Below, in pieces: positions 17,046 through 24,654 of a stretch of DNA of 64,000 nucleotides. The notes beneath the pieces are model-generated. The model did not search any database. It saw only the letters and a list, made by a program, of their open reading frames with translations, and had not been told where the DNA came from. Position 1 is the stretch's first letter. Each line of letters opens with the position of its first letter. Position numbers and translations under genes: made by a program. The DNA is from Blastococcus sp. HT6-4 (GTDB lineage: Bacteria; Actinomycetota; Actinomycetes; Mycobacteriales; Geodermatophilaceae): assembly GCF_039679125.1 (NCBI RefSeq), contig NZ_CP155551.1:1674001-1738000 (forward strand). The letters are read 5' to 3'.

Positions 17046-17645
17046 GTGACCAGCAAGCCGATCCGCGTCGTGATCGCCGAGGACGAGGCGCTCATCCGTC
17101 TCGACCTCAAGGAGATGCTCGAGGAGGAGGGGTACACGGTCGTCGCCGAGGTCGGTGACGGCCAGCAGGCGATCGACCGGGCCGAGGAGCTGCGCCCCGA
17201 CCTGGTGATCGTCGACATCCAGATGCCCGTCCTCGACGGGTTGTCCGCGGCGGAGCGGATCGCATCGGCGCGGATCGCGCCCGTCATCGTGCTGACGGCG
17301 TTCAGCCAGCGGGAGCTCGTCGAACGGGCCCGCGACGCCGGGGCGATGGCTTACCTGGTCAAGCCGTTCTCGAAGAACGACCTCGTCCCGGCGATCGAGG
17401 TGGCGCGCGGCCGGTTCGCCGAGATGACGGCGCTCGACAGCGAGGTCAAGACCCTCGAGGAGCGCCTGGAGACGCGGAAGGTCGTCGAGCAGGCGAAGGG
17501 GCGGCTGATGGCCGACCAGGGGATGACCGAGGCCGAGGCCTTCCGGTGGATCCAGCGCACGGCCATGAACGAGCGGACGAGCATGAAGGCGCTGGCGGAG
17601 GCCATCCTGGCCGGCGGCCCCGCCACCGAGGAGAGCTCCGCCTGA
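17046..17645 (+). CDS. pdtaR: ANTAR-domain response regulator, PdtaR type
   Basis: Two-component regulator that acts on RNA rather than DNA: ANTAR domains bind paired hexaloop hairpins and prevent termination. 199 residues. The receiver domain has IAEDEAL (acidic pocket), the phospho-acceptor Asp in IVDIQMPVLDG, and LVKPF with the conserved Lys. A linker coiled coil (LEERLETRKVVEQAKG) leads into the ANTAR domain (GRLMADQGMTEAEAFRWIQR). Length and layout match mycobacterial Rv1626. The partner kinase PdtaS is not in the window. The GTG start is fixed by the -10 hexamer just upstream. Confidence 0.93.
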   Translation: MTSKPIRVVIAEDEALIRLDLKEMLEEEGYTVVAEVGDGQQAIDRAEELRPDLVIVDIQMPVLDGLSAAERIASARIAPVIVLTAFSQRELVERARDAGAMAYLVKPFSKNDLVPAIEVARGRFAEMTALDSEVKTLEERLETRKVVEQAKGRLMADQGMTEAEAFRWIQRTAMNERTSMKALAEAILAGGPATEESSA

Positions 17646-17880: not shown

Positions 17881-19230
17881 ATGCGCACTGGCAAGAATGC
17901 CCGCGGCATCGCCGTGACCGGTGCCGCCCTGCTCGCCCTCACCGCATGCGGCGGCGGCGACGAGGGCGGCACGCCTGCTGCCGAGGGCGGCGACGGCGGC
18001 GTCGGCGGCGGCGAGAAGTTGGTCAACGTCTACGGGACCGACGGGAACATGGGGAACGCCCTGGGCGAGTCCTTCACCACCGAGGGCGCCCTGGCCGGGA
18101 TGCGGGGCACCACGCCACTGACGGAGCTGTCCTCGGACTTCACCGACCGGCTCCTGGCGATCGATCCCGATCTGCAGGACTTCAACTACGCGGGTGAGAC
18201 CTACGACGCGATCATCGTGAGCGCGCTGGCCGCCCAGCTGGCCGGCAGCACCGAGCCCACGGAGTTCGCGCCCTACATCAACGGCATCACCTTCGGCGGC
18301 GAGACCTGCGAGGACTTCGTCTCCTGCAAGGAGATCATCGACGCGGGCGGCAACCCCGACTACGACGGCGTGTCCGGTCCGCTCGAGTTCACCGAGCCCG
18401 GCGAGCCGGCGGTGGCCAGCTTCGGCATCCTGGAGTTCGGCCAGGACAACCAGATCGACTCCGACGCCACCGAGTTCGTGCTCGCCGGTGACGCGGACAA
18501 CGCGGCCAGTGACGAGGGTCCGGCCCCGGCGCCTCCGGGCGCCACGACGGACGACCCGCTGGTCATCGGCACCCTGCTGCCGCTCACCGGTAACCTCGCG
18601 TTCCTCGGCCCCCCGGAGGTCGCCGGCGCCCGGCTGGCCGTCCAGGAGATCAACGAGGCCGGTGGCGTGCTCGGCCAGGATGTGGAGCTGATCGAGGGTG
18701 ACTCGGGCGACGCGTCGACCGACACCGCCTCGCAGACGGTCGACCGGTTGCTGCAGGAGAACGTCGACGTCATCGTCGGTGCCGCGTCCTCCGGGGTGAG
18801 CCTGACCGTCATCGACGCCATCACCCGCGCCGGTGTGGTGCAGTTCTCGCCGGCCAACACGTCGGACCAGTTCACGACCTACAACGACAACGGTCTGTAC
18901 TTCCGGACGGCTCCGCCGGACACCCTGCAGGCCCGGGCGCTGTCCGACCTGATCATCAACGACGGCAACAACACCGTCGGGATCATGGCACTGAACGACC
19001 CGTACGGCACCGGTCTCATGGAGAACACCGTGGAGAACCTGCAGGCCGCAGGTCTGTCGGAGGACAGCATCCAGACGCTGACCTACGACCCGCAGGCGGC
19101 GAACTTCGACTCCGAGATCCAGCAGATGGTCGAGTTCAACCCCGACGCTGTGGTGGTGATCGGCTTCGAGGAGTCGGCGCGGATCATCGAAGGCCTCAAC
19201 GCGGAGGGCATCGGCCCGGCGCGCGACTGA
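17881..19230 (+). CDS. ABC transporter substrate-binding lipoprotein, LivK type, with permuted halves
   Basis: Extracytoplasmic binding protein of the branched-chain amino-acid/amide type (Peripla_BP_6 fold). 449 residues: lipoprotein signal with lipobox LTAC (Cys23), then a Gly-rich linker. Residues 46-195 (KLVNVYGTDGNMGNALGE onward, YAGETYDA, YDGVSGPLEF, GILEFG) match what is normally the C-terminal half. A Pro/Ala-rich linker (196-225) follows, then residues 226-449 (DPLVIGTLLPLTGNLAFLGP, NEAGGVLG, ENVDVIVGAASSG, VVVIGFEESARII), normally the N-terminal half. The protein stops at IGPARD, exactly where the first block would continue. Two cysteines (143, 149) may pair. ATG 17881 sits at the signal peptide. 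The permease genes are convergent at 19757-24037. Confidence 0.88.
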   Translation: MRTGKNARGIAVTGAALLALTACGGGDEGGTPAAEGGDGGVGGGEKLVNVYGTDGNMGNALGESFTTEGALAGMRGTTPLTELSSDFTDRLLAIDPDLQDFNYAGETYDAIIVSALAAQLAGSTEPTEFAPYINGITFGGETCEDFVSCKEIIDAGGNPDYDGVSGPLEFTEPGEPAVASFGILEFGQDNQIDSDATEFVLAGDADNAASDEGPAPAPPGATTDDPLVIGTLLPLTGNLAFLGPPEVAGARLAVQEINEAGGVLGQDVELIEGDSGDASTDTASQTVDRLLQENVDVIVGAASSGVSLTVIDAITRAGVVQFSPANTSDQFTTYNDNGLYFRTAPPDTLQARALSDLIINDGNNTVGIMALNDPYGTGLMENTVENLQAAGLSEDSIQTLTYDPQAANFDSEIQQMVEFNPDAVVVIGFEESARIIEGLNAEGIGPARD

Positions 19231-19244
19231 CGCAGTCCGGCTTG

Positions 19245-19268
19245 CCCGGGTCACCACGGTGACCCGGG
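19245..19268 (+). terminator. Hairpin terminator after the binding-protein gene
   Basis: CCCGGGTCACC, 2 nt, then its exact complement: an 11-bp inverted repeat beginning 15 nt after the stop codon. The innermost pairs must open to form a loop. Confidence 0.65.
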
Positions 19269-19287
19269 CGGGCCGACCGCCCGGTCG

Positions 19288-19323
19288 CAGTGGCCCGGCA
19301 CCCCACGGGGTGCCGGGCCACTG
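19288..19323. terminator. Second hairpin, 17-bp perfect inverted repeat
   Basis: CAGTGGCCCGGCACCCC at 19288-19304 and its exact complement at 19307-19323. With the preceding hairpin it forms a tandem terminator. The right arm is continuous with, and part of, the first unit of the 17-bp tandem array. Confidence 0.65.
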
Positions 19324-19430
19324 TGCTGTCCGGGCCACTGTGCTGTCCGGGCCACTGTGCTGTCCGGGCCACTGTGCTGTCCGGGCCACTGTGCTGTCCG
19401 GGCCACTGTGCTGTCCGGGCCACTGTGCTG
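19313..19430. repeat. Tandem array, seven copies of a 17-bp unit
   Basis: Unit CCGGGCCACTGTGCTGT starts at 19313, 19330, 19347, 19364, 19381, 19398 and 19415. Copies are identical except that the last lacks its final T. The unit length is not a multiple of three and the array lies outside any credible gene, between the convergent binding-protein gene and liv operon. Confidence 0.95.
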
Positions 19431-19756: not shown

Positions 19757-20671
19757 TCAGTGCGCCTTGGCCAGCGTGCCCAGGTAGAGCTCGATGACCT
19801 TGGGGTCGTGCATCAGCGACTCACCGGTGGCCGTGTAGGCGTTGCGGCCCTGGTCGAGCACGTAACCCCGGTCGCAGATCTGCAGGCAACGGCGGGCGTT
19901 CTGCTCGACCATGATGATCGACACGCCCGTGGCGTTGATCCGCCGGCAGCGGATGAACACCTCGTCCTGGTACGCGGGGGAGAGGCCGGCCGAGGGCTCG
20001 TCCAGGAGCAGCACCGACGGCTCCATCATCAACGCACGGCCCATGGCGACCATCTGGCGTTCGCCACCGGACAGCGAACCGGCCTTGGTCCGACGCCGCT
20101 CACCCAGCATGGGGAACAGCTCGGCGACGTAGTCGAAACGCTCCTTGAACGACTTCGGCCGCAGGTAGACGCCCATCTGCATGTTCTCCTCGATGGTCAG
20201 CGAGGGGAACACGTTGTTGTTCTGCGGCACGTAGCCCACGCCCAGGGACACCAGTCGGTGCGCGGGCGCCGAGGTGATGTTCTCCCCGCGCAGCGTCACC
20301 GAACCGGAGCGCACCGGGATCAGGCCGAACAGCGCCTTGAGCAACGTCGACTTGCCGGCACCGTTCGGCCCGATGATGCCGACCAGTTCGCCCTCGTTGA
20401 GATAGAAGTCGCACTCGTTGAGGATGTTCACCCCCGGCAGGTAGCCGGCGACCAGCTCGTCGGCGCGGATCAGCGCATCGCCGGCCAGCCGGACGTGCTC
20501 CTCGCGGGTGGCCGCCTGCTCGGCGGGGGAGAGGTCGCCGGCCGCCTCGGGCCGGCTCGGTCCCCGACCGACCGCTCCCGCACCGTCCCCCTGGTCGGCC
20601 GGTCGGTCGAACTCGTACTCCGGGTCGGTGCTCTCACGTGGGTCCTTGCCCTGACCGGGATCGATCGTCAT
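19757..20671 (-). CDS. livF: Branched-chain amino-acid-type ABC transporter, ATPase LivF
   Basis: Cytoplasmic ATPase of a high-affinity amino-acid or amide importer. 304 residues. Walker A is IGPNGAGKST, the Q-loop lies in VPQNNNVFPSLT, the signature is LSGGERQM, Walker B is VLLLDEPSAGLSP, and the switch histidine position is EQNARR-like as usual in LivF. An N-terminal extension of about 65 acidic residues precedes the ATPase fold and is not typical; its function is unknown. Its ATG overlaps the livG stop. It is the last gene of livH-livM-livG-livF. Substrate is uncertain; urea or amides are alternatives to Leu/Ile/Val. Confidence 0.93.
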   Translation of the reverse strand: MTIDPGQGKDPRESTDPEYEFDRPADQGDGAGAVGRGPSRPEAAGDLSPAEQAATREEHVRLAGDALIRADELVAGYLPGVNILNECDFYLNEGELVGIIGPNGAGKSTLLKALFGLIPVRSGSVTLRGENITSAPAHRLVSLGVGYVPQNNNVFPSLTIEENMQMGVYLRPKSFKERFDYVAELFPMLGERRRTKAGSLSGGERQMVAMGRALMMEPSVLLLDEPSAGLSPAYQDEVFIRCRRINATGVSIIMVEQNARRCLQICDRGYVLDQGRNAYTATGESLMHDPKVIELYLGTLAKAH

Positions 20672-21678
20672 CGGTCCGTCCCCTTCTCGCGCTTAGGCTC
20701 CGGACGCCGGACGTCGGCCGTGGATTCCTCGCGGGAGATGCTGGCCGCGGCCTCGGCGAGCTGGCGGTCCTCGTCCTCGGTGGTGAGCGCGGCATCGTGG
20801 TGTGCACCGAGGTAGGCGTCGACCACGGCCTGGTTCTGGCTGATCGACTCGGGGGGGCCCTCGGCGATGACCTTGCCCGCGGCCATCACGACGACCCAGT
20901 CGCTGATGTCCCGGACGACGTCCATGTCGTGCTCGACGAAGACCACCGTCATGCCCTGCTCGCGCAGGTCCTTGACGTGCCCCAGCAGGCTCTGCGTCAG
21001 CGCCGGGTTCACCCCGGCCATCGGCTCGTCGAGCATGACGACCTTGGGGTCGCTCATCAGCGCGCGGGCCATCTCGAGCAGCTTGCGCTGTCCGCCCGAC
21101 AGCGTGCCGGCGAAGTCATCCTTCTTCGTGTCGAGCTTGAACCGGCGCAGCAGCTCCATGGCCTTCTCGGTGTTGGCCTGCTCCTGCGCCCGCCAGATCC
21201 CCGGGATCAGTGCACGGAAGAAGCTCTCGCCCTTCTGCCCCTGCGCGCCGAGCAGCATGTTCTGCAGCACGGTCAGCCGGGACAGGGCCTTGGTCAGCTG
21301 GAAGGTGCGGACCACGCCGAGACGCGCCACCTGGTGCGAGGCCAGCTTGCCGAGCGGGCGGCCGTCGAAGGACCACGAGCCCCCGTCGGGCTGGTCGAAC
21401 CCGGTGAGCAGGTTGAACAGGGTGGTCTTGCCGGCCCCGTTGGGCCCGATGAGGCCCGTGATCCCACCGCGCTGGATCTCCAGGTGGTCGACCGAGACGG
21501 CGGTGAGACCGCCGAAGGTGCGCACGACGCCGTCCACCACGATGGCGGGATCGGGCTTGGCGACGCCGACCTCCCATGGCAGGTCGCGGAGGGCGGCCTG
21601 CGCCAGCCGCCGTGGGGCTGCCGGAGCGCCTGCGGAACTCGCGTGCGCGCCGCTCGTGGGGGTGGGGTCAGCGGGCAT
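20668..21678 (-). CDS. livG: Branched-chain amino-acid-type ABC transporter, ATPase LivG
   Basis: Second ATPase of the importer, partner of LivF. 336 residues. Walker A LIGPNGAGKTTL, signature LSGGQRKLLEMARAL, Walker B VVMLDEPMAGVNP and switch histidine in VFVEHDMDVV. FNLLTGFDQPDGG is typical of LivG. About 45 extra N-terminal residues and a charged ~35-residue C-terminal tail flank the core. It overlaps livM by 11 bp and livF by 4 bp, so the four liv genes are probably one transcript. Confidence 0.93.
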   Translation of the reverse strand: MPADPTPTSGAHASSAGAPAAPRRLAQAALRDLPWEVGVAKPDPAIVVDGVVRTFGGLTAVSVDHLEIQRGGITGLIGPNGAGKTTLFNLLTGFDQPDGGSWSFDGRPLGKLASHQVARLGVVRTFQLTKALSRLTVLQNMLLGAQGQKGESFFRALIPGIWRAQEQANTEKAMELLRRFKLDTKKDDFAGTLSGGQRKLLEMARALMSDPKVVMLDEPMAGVNPALTQSLLGHVKDLREQGMTVVFVEHDMDVVRDISDWVVVMAAGKVIAEGPPESISQNQAVVDAYLGAHHDAALTTEDEDRQLAEAAASISREESTADVRRPEPKREKGTDR

Positions 21679-22666
21679 CGAGCATCACCTCTCGTCGGTC
21701 ACCGAAGATGCCCTGCGGCCGGAAGATCAGCAGCAGGATCAGCCCGAGACCGATCAGGACGAACCGGATCTGGGCCACGTCGGTGGCCGACAGCAGGTCC
21801 TCGGGGATGACCCCGTTGCTGATCAGCGTACGCAGCCCGGTGTCGGCGAACTGGACGATGAAGTACAGGATCATCGCGCCGATGACGGGCCCGAGGACCC
21901 GTGCCGCACCGCCCAGGATCAGTGCCGCGTACGCCAGGAAGGTGTTCGCGTTCTGGTACTGGTCCGGGGTGGCGGACGCCGTCCCGACGGCGTACACCAT
22001 GCCGCCCAGCGCACCGAGCACGCCGCCCAGCACGAGGGCCTGCATCTTGTAGACGTAGACGTTCTTGCCCAGGGCTCGCACCGCGTCCTCGTCCTCGCGG
22101 ATGGACTTCACCACCCGGCCCCAGGGGCTACGGACGAGCAGCCACACCAGCAGGCAGGCCAGTGCGACCAGCACCCAGCCGACGAGCGTGACCCACAGGT
22201 CCGCGCCGCTCCAGCGGGTGCCCAGGAGACTGTAGCGGCGCGCGGTGTCCCAGGGCGCAAGATCGACGAAGGGATCGCTGAACCCGGAGAGCCCCCGGGT
22301 GCCCGCGGTGATCGGCGTCGCCGAGACCGACCGGAACGTGAGCCGGAGTCCCTCGGCGGCGGCGATGGTGGCGATGGCCAGGTAGTCGGCGCGCAGTCGC
22401 AGCGTCGGGATGCCCAGCAGCAGGGCGAGCAGGACGGCGGCGGCGATGCCGATGAGCACGCCGACCCAGAAGGGGAGCCCCCATTGGGCCACGGAGATCG
22501 CGATCCCGTAGCCGCCCAGCATGGCGAAGGCGATCTGACCGAAGTTCAGCAGCCCCGTGTAGCCGAACTGGATGTTGAGTCCGATGGCGAGCAGCGCGAA
22601 GAAGACGGCCTGGAAGCCGATCCCCGCCTTGAGTGCGACGGCGAGTGCGTCGAGGAGTTCAGCCAT
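21668..22666 (-). CDS. livM: Branched-chain amino-acid-type ABC transporter permease LivM
   Basis: Membrane subunit that pairs with LivH. 332 residues with about nine hydrophobic segments; LNIQFGYTGLLNFGQIAF near residue 30 and the cytoplasmic coupling motif SPWGRVVKSIREDEDAVRALG (contacting the ATPases) identify the family. The start ATG lies 3 nt after the livH stop, and its end overlaps livG. Confidence 0.94.
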   Translation of the reverse strand: MAELLDALAVALKAGIGFQAVFFALLAIGLNIQFGYTGLLNFGQIAFAMLGGYGIAISVAQWGLPFWVGVLIGIAAAVLLALLLGIPTLRLRADYLAIATIAAAEGLRLTFRSVSATPITAGTRGLSGFSDPFVDLAPWDTARRYSLLGTRWSGADLWVTLVGWVLVALACLLVWLLVRSPWGRVVKSIREDEDAVRALGKNVYVYKMQALVLGGVLGALGGMVYAVGTASATPDQYQNANTFLAYAALILGGAARVLGPVIGAMILYFIVQFADTGLRTLISNGVIPEDLLSATDVAQIRFVLIGLGLILLLIFRPQGIFGDRREVMLDAR

Positions 22667-22669
22667 GGC

Positions 22670-24037
22670 TCAACCAATCCGGGCCCGGCTGCCGAGGATG
22701 CCCTGCGGCCGCACGATGAGGATGACGATCAGGAGGAGCAGACCGCCTACGTACTTCATGTCGTTGGGGATGACCAGCGTCGACATCTGGACGAAGACGC
22801 CGACCACGATGCTGCCGACGAGGGCGCCGTAGGCGGTGCCGAGACCACCCAGCGTGACGCCGGCGAACATCAGCAGCAGGAGCCGGAAGCCCATGTCCCA
22901 CTGGACCTCGTCCGAGAGGCCCAGCAGCACGCCGCCCAGGGCGGCCAGTGAGCCACCGACCATCCAGACCACCAGGATCACTCGGTTGACGTCGATCCCG
23001 GAGGAGGCGGCGAGGTCGCGGTTGTCGGAGACGGCCCGCATGGCCTTGCCCATCTTGGTCCGCTGCAGCATCAGCGCGACGAGGACGAGGACGCCCAGCG
23101 CCACCAACATCGACGTGAGGTCCTTGTTGGTCATCGAGAAGGCGCCGTAGTCGACGGTGCGCTGACCCCGGTAGTCGGCGAAAGCGTTGGAGCGGCCACC
23201 GTAGATGACCTGGTAGAGGTACCGGAGCAGCAGCGACAGGCCGATCGAGATGACGAGTGCGGCCACCAGGCCGGTGCCCCGGCGGCGCAGCGGTCGCCAC
23301 AGGGCGACTTCGTTGAGGGCACCGATGCCGGCGCCCACGATCATCGCCAGGATCGCCGCGGCGATCAGCGGTACTCCGCCCCCCACGTTGATGAACCAGG
23401 CCACGATCGCGCCGATGGTCACCAGTTCGCCGTGCGCGAAGTTCACCAGCCCGGTGGTGCCGAAGATCAGCGACAGGCCGATGGCCGCCATGGCGATGAG
23501 CAGGCCGAAGCGGAGCCCCGAGACCAGCAACTCGACCCAGCGGACGGACCCGCCGCCGGATTCCCGGGAGCCGTCGTTGAGCCCGATGATCACACCTTGG
23601 CTGCGTCCGGGGTCGACGGTGACCGTGCGGCTGTTCCCCGCGTTGAACTCCACACCCTCGGGGAGGGAGTCCTCGGGGATGGTCACCGTGTACTCACCGG
23701 GGCCCGGCAGGTCGACGACGAAGCGGCCGTTCTCGTCGGTCTCGTCGGTGCCCACCACGTCGCCGTCCGGCGTGGTGACCACCACCTCGACCCCTTCGAT
23801 GGGGCCGCTCAGGCTCGTCCGCAGCGTGCCGGAGACCTGCTCGCCCTCCCCGTCCGCCGCGTGCGCGACACCGGGGACGAGGGTGGCCAGTCCGGCGGTG
23901 AACAGCGCCACCAGCAGCAGCCGTACCGCCGCGGCCAGCCCTCTGCGCGGCGGTCCACCAGCCGGCCTCCGAGCCACCGCTCTCGCGGGACTGCTGCGTC
24001 GACCGTGCCGGCGGACACGGTCCGTCGGGTGCGTCAC
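22670..24037 (-). CDS. livH: LivH-type ABC permease with secreted N-terminal Ig-like domain
   Basis: Permease subunit of the importer (about residues 165-455), recognisable by AIGLSLIFGTTGLVNFAHGEL and the coupling motif GKAMRAVSDNRDLAASSGID. It is preceded by a signal peptide (hydrophobic core 36-55, AHAA cleavage-like site near 60) and a carboxypeptidase-regulatory/Ig-like beta domain (about 66-153: GTLRTSLSGPIEGVEVVV, GTDETDENGRFVVDLPGPG). Ordinary LivH proteins have about 290-300 residues and lack this part. GTG 24037 is chosen for the AGGAGG sequence 5 nt upstream and the intact signal peptide. It is the first gene of the liv operon; a TAGGTT hexamer lies at 24069-24074. Confidence 0.88.
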   Translation of the reverse strand: MTHPTDRVRRHGRRSSPARAVARRPAGGPPRRGLAAAVRLLLVALFTAGLATLVPGVAHAADGEGEQVSGTLRTSLSGPIEGVEVVVTTPDGDVVGTDETDENGRFVVDLPGPGEYTVTIPEDSLPEGVEFNAGNSRTVTVDPGRSQGVIIGLNDGSRESGGGSVRWVELLVSGLRFGLLIAMAAIGLSLIFGTTGLVNFAHGELVTIGAIVAWFINVGGGVPLIAAAILAMIVGAGIGALNEVALWRPLRRRGTGLVAALVISIGLSLLLRYLYQVIYGGRSNAFADYRGQRTVDYGAFSMTNKDLTSMLVALGVLVLVALMLQRTKMGKAMRAVSDNRDLAASSGIDVNRVILVVWMVGGSLAALGGVLLGLSDEVQWDMGFRLLLLMFAGVTLGGLGTAYGALVGSIVVGVFVQMSTLVIPNDMKYVGGLLLLIVILIVRPQGILGSRARIG

Positions 24038-24068
24038 TCGACCTCCTCGGCGGATTCGTTGAGGTCGG

Positions 24069-24074
24069 AACCTA
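24069..24074 (-). promoter_or_regulatory. Possible -10 hexamer TAGGTT of the liv operon
   Basis: On the minus strand TAGGTT lies about 32 nt before the livH GTG, leaving room for a short leader with the AGGAGG ribosome-binding site. No clear -35 element. Confidence 0.4.
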
Positions 24075-24240
24075 ACGTAGTTGTCCACCCAGGCCGCCTC
24101 CGTGCACCGACCTGTGACCTTTCTGCGACACGCCGTGCCGTTCGAGGAGCGCTGCGTGGCGGCCCGCCGCACGATCGGGTGATGCGCCGAGGGTCCGAGC
24201 GGGGGCCCGGCCGTCGACCGGGGCGGTCGGCCAGGCCGGC

Positions 24241-24654
24241 TCAGGTCTTCGACGCGTCGAGGGTCATGCAGGTCAGCCGTGCGGTCGCGGTCCGCCGGCC
24301 CTGGTCGTCGGTGATGTCGATGAGGAACGTCGACAGCGTCCGGCCGCGGCGGACCGGCGTGCAGACGGCGGTCACGGAGCCCGAGGTGGCCGCACGCAGG
24401 TAGCTGACGTTGAGCTCGATGCCCACCACCTGACGGTCGGGCCCGGCGCCCACGGCGGCGGCCATCGACCCGATGGTCTCGGCCAGCGTGCACGTCGCGC
24501 CGCCGTGGAGCAGCCCGAAGGGTTGCTGGTTGCCGTCCACCGGCATCGTCGCGACCAGCCGGTCGGGGTTCCAGTCGGTCATCCGCACGCCGAGCTTGTC
24601 GTCGAGGGGGCTGCTGATACCGGCCGGCAGCCAGTCCGGGGGAGGGGTGCTCAC
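24241..24654 (-). CDS. Hotdog-fold thioesterase, PaaI/YdiI type
   Basis: Small acyl-CoA (or aryl-CoA) thioesterase of 137 residues. The motif LLHGGATCTLAETIGSMAA, with HGG and the downstream acidic Glu, is the PaaI/YdiI hallmark; GIELNVSYLRAATSG completes the fold. The physiological substrate is unknown. GTG 24654 is preceded by TACGGT and 6 nt, which fixes the start and predicts a leaderless mRNA. It is divergent from polA, with 66 bp between the two starts. Confidence 0.85.
   Translation of the reverse strand: MSTPPPDWLPAGISSPLDDKLGVRMTDWNPDRLVATMPVDGNQQPFGLLHGGATCTLAETIGSMAAAVGAGPDRQVVGIELNVSYLRAATSGSVTAVCTPVRRGRTLSTFLIDITDDQGRRTATARLTCMTLDASKT

Follow-up and report, generated by a model that had tools for sequence, protein, structure and literature searches.

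Among type I binding lipoproteins, a natural circular permutation is known from the solved structure of TpMglB-2 of Treponema pallidum ("Type Ic / Cluster Bc"), a glucose-binding MglB relative in which the first three strands of the N-lobe have moved to the C-terminus and the order of the C-lobe is unaffected (PMC4990184). In the available sections of that paper the permuted topology is considered a possible adaptation to membrane anchoring and horizontal sharing is pointed to, with several origins not discussed there (PMC4990184). Permutation by duplication is in turn an established model for DNA methyltransferases and saposin/swaposin, comprising tandem duplication, fusion and trimming with predicted intermediates (PMC3320104, as excerpted). 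Here we analyse a gene within a 64,000-nucleotide stretch of Blastococcus sp. HT6-4 (contig NZ_CP155551.1, positions 1,674,001 to 1,738,000; hereafter the window), which encodes a LivK-type substrate-binding lipoprotein with its two sequence blocks in exchanged order (Table 1). Most natural circular permutations, to our knowledge, happened once and long ago, and their ancestors and intermediate steps are difficult to trace. At this locus both orders occur, with two cuts, what appear to be several origins, tandem copies that may represent first steps, and a cognate transporter beside most of the genes: a natural test case for how proteins change chain order. Finding both orders at the same locus, with several origins, makes it possible to test the DNA steps of permutation and whether new termini are constrained by the fold or selected by the anchor.

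Positions given below as "profile" refer to an orthologue profile of 442 positions, constructed from 19 unpermuted relatives; block A denotes the old N-terminal two thirds of the protein and block B the old C-terminal third. Compared with canonical LivK/LivJ proteins (PF13458; PDB 3td9, 3ipc and 4gnr), block A aligns to their first ~220 residues, an unpermuted sister from the same locus aligns over its full length, and liv-type transporter genes are adjacent; the differences are the exchanged blocks, the extra linker and the new ends at profile 282–286, which by analogy lie in lobe 2. Like TpMglB-2, as far as the excerpts of its description go, the window protein is a circularly permuted type I binding lipoprotein, but the cut in the window family lies much further along (profile 282–286 or 305–307) and the three-strand move is not seen. 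The methyltransferase and saposin permutations share the expected duplication route, judging from the excerpted account, and differ in that they concern other folds, whereas the LivK-type case reuses the same cut in orthologues at a conserved place. No paper on natural permutation in the LivK branch was present among the literature matches listed, whose coverage mostly excludes subscription papers. Permutation of the type I fold is already known from TpMglB-2; what appears to be new is that it recurs, at fixed sites, within a single orthologous locus.

Reversed block order in a predicted single fold

The orthologue profile matched the window protein in two envelopes of reversed order, residues 41–201 corresponding to profile 282–438 (204 bits) and residues 202–447 to profile 39–285 (384 bits), and the canonical N-to-C order of the profile halves is therefore absent. 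Unpermuted controls gave a single envelope each: 1–441 for L112 and L103, both of which contributed to the profile, and 3–439 for L135, which lies outside it. BLASTP against the unpermuted L103 protein likewise returned residues 212–447 against 52–287 (64% identity, 293 bits) and residues 40–205 against 283–444 (51%, 157 bits); two reversed segments were obtained with all five unpermuted relatives compared (43–64% identity), and the best of 200 shuffled queries reached 28.5 bits. PF13458 (Peripla_BP_6) matched only residues 227–441, at its own positions 2–212 of 343 (126.6 bits against a cut-off of 31.7), while in two unpermuted relatives the match extends to positions 315 and 320. Annotation is affected accordingly: the best Pfam and NCBIfam matches cover block A alone, the latter below their cut-offs. 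Computation on the sequences thus shows block B now preceding block A, and confirms, at that level, that the predicted protein is one complete LivK-type binding protein with a single cut and its old ends joined. The original prediction had proposed swapped halves and placed the junction at IGPARD; the reversed envelopes bear out the first, and the junction was right to within a few residues. It had also named two outcomes that would overturn it, hidden Markov model blocks in normal order and a structure of two independent incomplete domains, and neither was observed.

The structure model predicts one confident fold (predicted local distance difference test score, pLDDT, 87.8). Secondary-structure elements within each block follow the same order as in an unpermuted sister, with the blocks exchanged and one helix of block B split in two, and computation places the new ends in a helix–strand loop (profile 282–286). 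Searched alone against PDB sequences, block B gave no convincing match, which is unfavourable to this reading. Foldseek and VIA-align listed no match spanning block B; as sequential aligners track one block only, this says nothing about B. The ratio of nonsynonymous to synonymous substitution rates (dN/dS), estimated by a simple counting method, was 0.17–0.32 for the whole gene against eight relatives, and is low in both blocks (0.11–0.36 for A, 0.19–0.37 for B).

Could the order be an assembly or annotation artefact, or the gene a decaying pseudogene? In one metagenome assembly, that of L101, the linker of a permuted gene reads as frame-shifted. Within the window family (group f1), the gene is full length and stop-free in 28 of the 36 member genomes covered by a search of 60 own and related genomes, including the one-contig genome of the window itself, and the low dN/dS speaks against decay. 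That many independently sequenced genomes share this order refutes the artefact explanation, whose probability we regard as close to nil, and excludes the assembly error that the original prediction had named as a third refuting outcome.

The 60-genome search also recovered a permuted, full-length gene in G050, from another family of the order, and the normal order in G057. The original prediction had called the permutation rare; within the window family it is instead carried by 46 of 51 genomes, according to an order-wide search of 298 genomes. In the same search all 43 genomes of genus g27 (group f16) with a match at E 1e-30 showed the permuted gene as one colinear match. Permuted order was further seen in 41 of the 71 f81 genomes with a match (2 of the 41 incomplete) and in 13 of 102 f41 genomes. 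The genome of the window holds no close unpermuted paralogue, the next match being at E 2.7e-6. Separately, a second, more divergent, full-length permuted copy is present in g4 genomes (L042 in G025, and in G487, G527 and G630); the L042 copy has no adjoining liv genes.

Cut points, linkers and number of origins

Cut points were compared in 137 permuted and 141 unpermuted distinct genes. Two sites were found. At site 1, in 101 distinct proteins, block A ends at profile 282–286 and block B starts at 279–288; at site 2, about 22 residues further on and seen in 36 distinct proteins, block A ends at 305–307 and block B starts at 302–308 (since permuted genes were largely found with permuted queries, these numbers say nothing about frequency). 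Overlaps or gaps between A and B did not exceed six positions in any of the 137 permuted proteins. Site 2 was first met in L101, from an Acidimicrobiales metagenome bin with the frame-shifted linker mentioned above, and later in other families of the phylum free of that defect.

Linkers of roughly 18–30 residues run from the natural end of B into a stretch resembling the mature N-terminus of unpermuted relatives; in the window protein it is the 3' end of the linker that resembles the stretch preceding the binding domain in those relatives. By eye, the Nocardioides clade and most site-2 rows share the motif GDG.[LF].[IV]G, and the window clade has ..DPL.IG, comparable with ..TDPLIIG in Pseudonocardia. 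Block-A envelopes begin at profile 34–59, ahead of the domain, and together with the inspection by eye this indicates that the joining sequence derives from the old termini.

Origins were counted on trees built from rotated A+B alignments, using the following groups: GEO (f1, with named loci from Blastococcus, Geodermatophilus, Modestobacter and Klenkia, plus L099 and L264); PLA (f16 plus Planosporangium/Dactylosporangium proteins); NOC (the Nocardioides clade, within f41); F39 and F49 (family group codes); and S2 (the site-2 proteins). Named rows in the same clades suggest that f16 is Micromonosporaceae and f41 Nocardioidaceae. The first set of 97 rows required four changes of order, three of them forced by starred branches, and a careful subset of 78 rows required four, all forced (bootstrap range 4–5). 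With site-2 proteins included and seven unpermuted loci that failed the motif split left out (L235, L238, L242, L243, L247, L248 and L254), 85 rows gave five changes on the best tree, four forced by well-supported branches (bootstrap 5–5); an 89-row set analysed by a quick method also gave five, four forced. Further rows that were near-duplicates or had long branches do not appear in the 78-, 85- and 89-row and single-block trees. The direction of change comes from the LivK family at large, in which the normal order is ancestral; the counts themselves give none.

One-clade constraints were evaluated by their cost in log-likelihood units and by the approximately unbiased (AU) test. Forcing all permuted proteins into one clade cost 238 units (p 4e-38) and all site-1 proteins 225 (p 2e-70). 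Pairwise, uniting GEO+PLA with NOC cost 191 (p 1e-98), GEO+PLA with F39+F49 103 (p 0.0001), NOC with F39+F49 88 (p 1e-32, smaller set only) and GEO+PLA with the four main site-2 rows 25 (p 0.001). These rejections separate the three site-1 clades from one another and site 2 from the clade of the window. GEO and PLA were joined at 99/97 in the 85-row tree, and the window family and Micromonosporaceae likely share one event. The computations thus show that the site-1 proteins form three separate clades and that the site-2 cut occurs in at least one further clade; with at least four order changes forced and five on the best tree, the sequence comparison indicates that the permutation arose several separate times.

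Several results pull the other way. In the block-B tree the unpermuted L135 falls inside NOC and just three changes are forced. A single clade of all five site-2 rows was not rejected (p 0.21), so the fifth event is uncertain, nor was a clade of GEO+PLA with L101 alone in the smaller set (p 0.11). GEO and PLA stood apart with weak support in one smaller tree, in which their union was not rejected either (p 0.44). The site-2 pairwise tests were run against GEO+PLA only, and the tested groups were named after a first tree.

These results bear on whether one ancient permutation could have spread horizontally, resident unpermuted genes then overwriting A and B separately by gene conversion. Such a history would fit the occurrence of both forms within genera (g134, in the family of G202, and g315 and g278 of f81), the similar linker lengths and the unpermuted gene inside the Nocardioides clade of the block-B tree; a permuted protein named Nonomuraea within that clade, together with the patchy distribution, also suggests transfer. 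Against it stand the large likelihood differences by which one clade is rejected, for all site-1 clades and for every pair, the two cut points, and the single-block trees, each of which still needs five changes on its own (four forced for A, three for B). By eye, moreover, linker middles differ between clades and linker ends resemble the unpermuted termini of their own lineage. We judge this single-origin history improbable and favour several origins.

Route of the permutation

We propose that an unpermuted gene was tandemly duplicated in frame and fused into one open reading frame (ORF), that the first A and the last B were then lost with the signal peptide kept in front, and that selection would have retained one complete fold. 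The account as a whole, of a naturally permuted type I lipoprotein with several origins that arose by duplication, fusion and trimming and would still capture ligand for a LivFGMH importer, seems to us highly probable. Duplication with loss of the outer halves had been suggested originally, and it remains the best-supported route, although the fused intermediate it implies was not found.

L183 and L184 do have tandem unpermuted copies at the locus. Three observations are nevertheless unfavourable to this route: L183 and L184 belong to f31, in which no permuted gene was seen; fused intermediates (ABAB, BAB or ABA) were absent from the loci examined; and so were relics beside permuted genes, one tandem permuted pair excepted. 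In figures, no relic of A or B was detected within 1.5 kb, at the thresholds used, in 183 of 185 permuted ORF records (which include overlapping loci and short flanks). The other two records are accounted for by L334, a tandem pair of site-2 permuted genes.

Alternatively, genuine permutations might have come about without tandem duplication: either the gene was split and its parts fused anew, or a DNA circle was excised and inserted again. The complementary pieces, with at most six positions of overlap or gap in 137 proteins, are what a one-step circle would give, and no fused intermediate was seen. On the other hand, a simple circle leaves the signal peptide still in front unexplained, the linker retains sequence resembling the old mature N-terminus, tandem unpermuted copies exist in L183 and L184, and no separate half-gene accompanies the permuted genes. 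We consider these routes unlikely and prefer tandem duplication.

L163 was considered as a B-A-B intermediate and rejected: upstream of an intact unpermuted gene stands a separate paralogue from which much of A is missing. That paralogue (L163:2972-3745) and a like region of L196 seem to have kept the beginning of A and a portion of B but not the middle, and perhaps encode a single-lobe binding protein. The start of A is repeated in P0006 and P0021, but with no contig longer than 1,610 and 1,544 bases, respectively, these may be assembly chimaeras.

Locus and inferred function

Computation shows that, in other lineages, unpermuted orthologues lie at the same chromosomal position. The arrangement common to both orders is an ANTAR regulator, the binding-protein gene and then convergent livF-livG-livM-livH. 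Where the flank was long enough, convergent livF lies at most 3.5 kb after the gene in 69 of 72 unpermuted, 61 of 69 site-1 and 5 of 6 site-2 distinct genes; L256 is included among the last five only on the strength of a weak 28% hit, its liv genes being upstream. An upstream ANTAR neighbour accompanies 41/81 unpermuted, 85/99 site-1 and 0/34 site-2 genes, many upstream flanks being just 1.5 kb. The lack of this neighbour at site 2 counts against the account, as do six PLA forms that are not beside liv genes (L036, L102, L109, L175, L260 and L263). Next to L109 is a cytochrome b-like gene; G608 holds both the permuted L260, without liv neighbours, and an unpermuted L261 beside liv genes.

Table 1. 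Features of the binding-protein gene and its neighbours (window coordinates; aa, amino acids; ABC, ATP-binding cassette)
Feature	Position	Strand	Basis
Response regulator with ANTAR domain, frequent upstream neighbour	17046..17645	+	
Circularly permuted LivK-type substrate-binding lipoprotein, 449 aa	17881..19230, stop included	+	sequence, profile comparison
Signal peptide, lipobox LTAC, Cys23 = predicted lipid anchor	17881..17949	+	sequence
Gly/Ala/Glu-rich, low-complexity spacer preceding block B	17950..18000	+	sequence; pLDDT <50 at residues 1–43
Block B, residues 41–201, profile 282–438 of unpermuted orthologues (their C-terminal part)	18001..18483	+	
Linker, residues about 202–223, old C-terminus to old mature N-terminus	18484..18549	+	
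Block A, residues about 224–449, profile about 60–285 of unpermuted orthologues (N-terminal part), ends GIGPARD	18550..19227	+	
livF-like ABC ATPase, convergent with binding-protein gene	19757..20671	-	
livG-like ABC ATPase with BCA_ABC_TP_C	20668..21678	-	
livM-like permease (BPD_transp_2)	21668..22666	-	
livH-like permease ORF (BPD_transp_2), N-terminal CarboxypepD_reg-like domain (PF13620); start not fixed	22670..24493	-	

Residues C23, S304, T327 and E431 do not vary across 56 permuted proteins, and the last three align with Ser, Thr and Glu of the LivJ structure 4gnr. Such residues in LivJ-type proteins presumably bind the ligand, holding its amino and carboxyl groups. Given the adjacent liv genes, an amino-acid- or amide-type ligand is likely, and the permuted protein would still capture it for the LivFGMH-type ABC importer encoded alongside. 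The lipid anchor would now lead into lobe 2, as that lobe is defined by comparison with LivK, instead of lobe 1.

The CarboxypepD_reg-like domain of LivH might dock the binding protein, easing the need for a lobe-1 anchor. N-terminal LivH extensions of similar look occur at permuted and unpermuted loci, including L035, L103, L112, L113, L115, L117, L258 and L259, and are thus not tied to permutation; nor are they universal, L116 and L165 having just 28 and 41 open residues there. We offer only tentatively, and with more doubt than belief, the suggestion that four to five or more independent permutations, at one locus and in two neighbouring loops across the phylum, reflect parallel evolution of topology because the shift of the anchor from lobe 1 to lobe 2 was advantageous, or was made harmless by a putative outer docking domain of LivH. 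In any case, the cut points identify positions at which a type I binding protein accepts new termini, and this knowledge could be of use in designing sensors.

Just 3' of the binding-protein gene, a palindrome (19244–19269) follows the stop codon, and a perfect 17-bp tandem repeat of 6.9 copies occupies 19313–19430.
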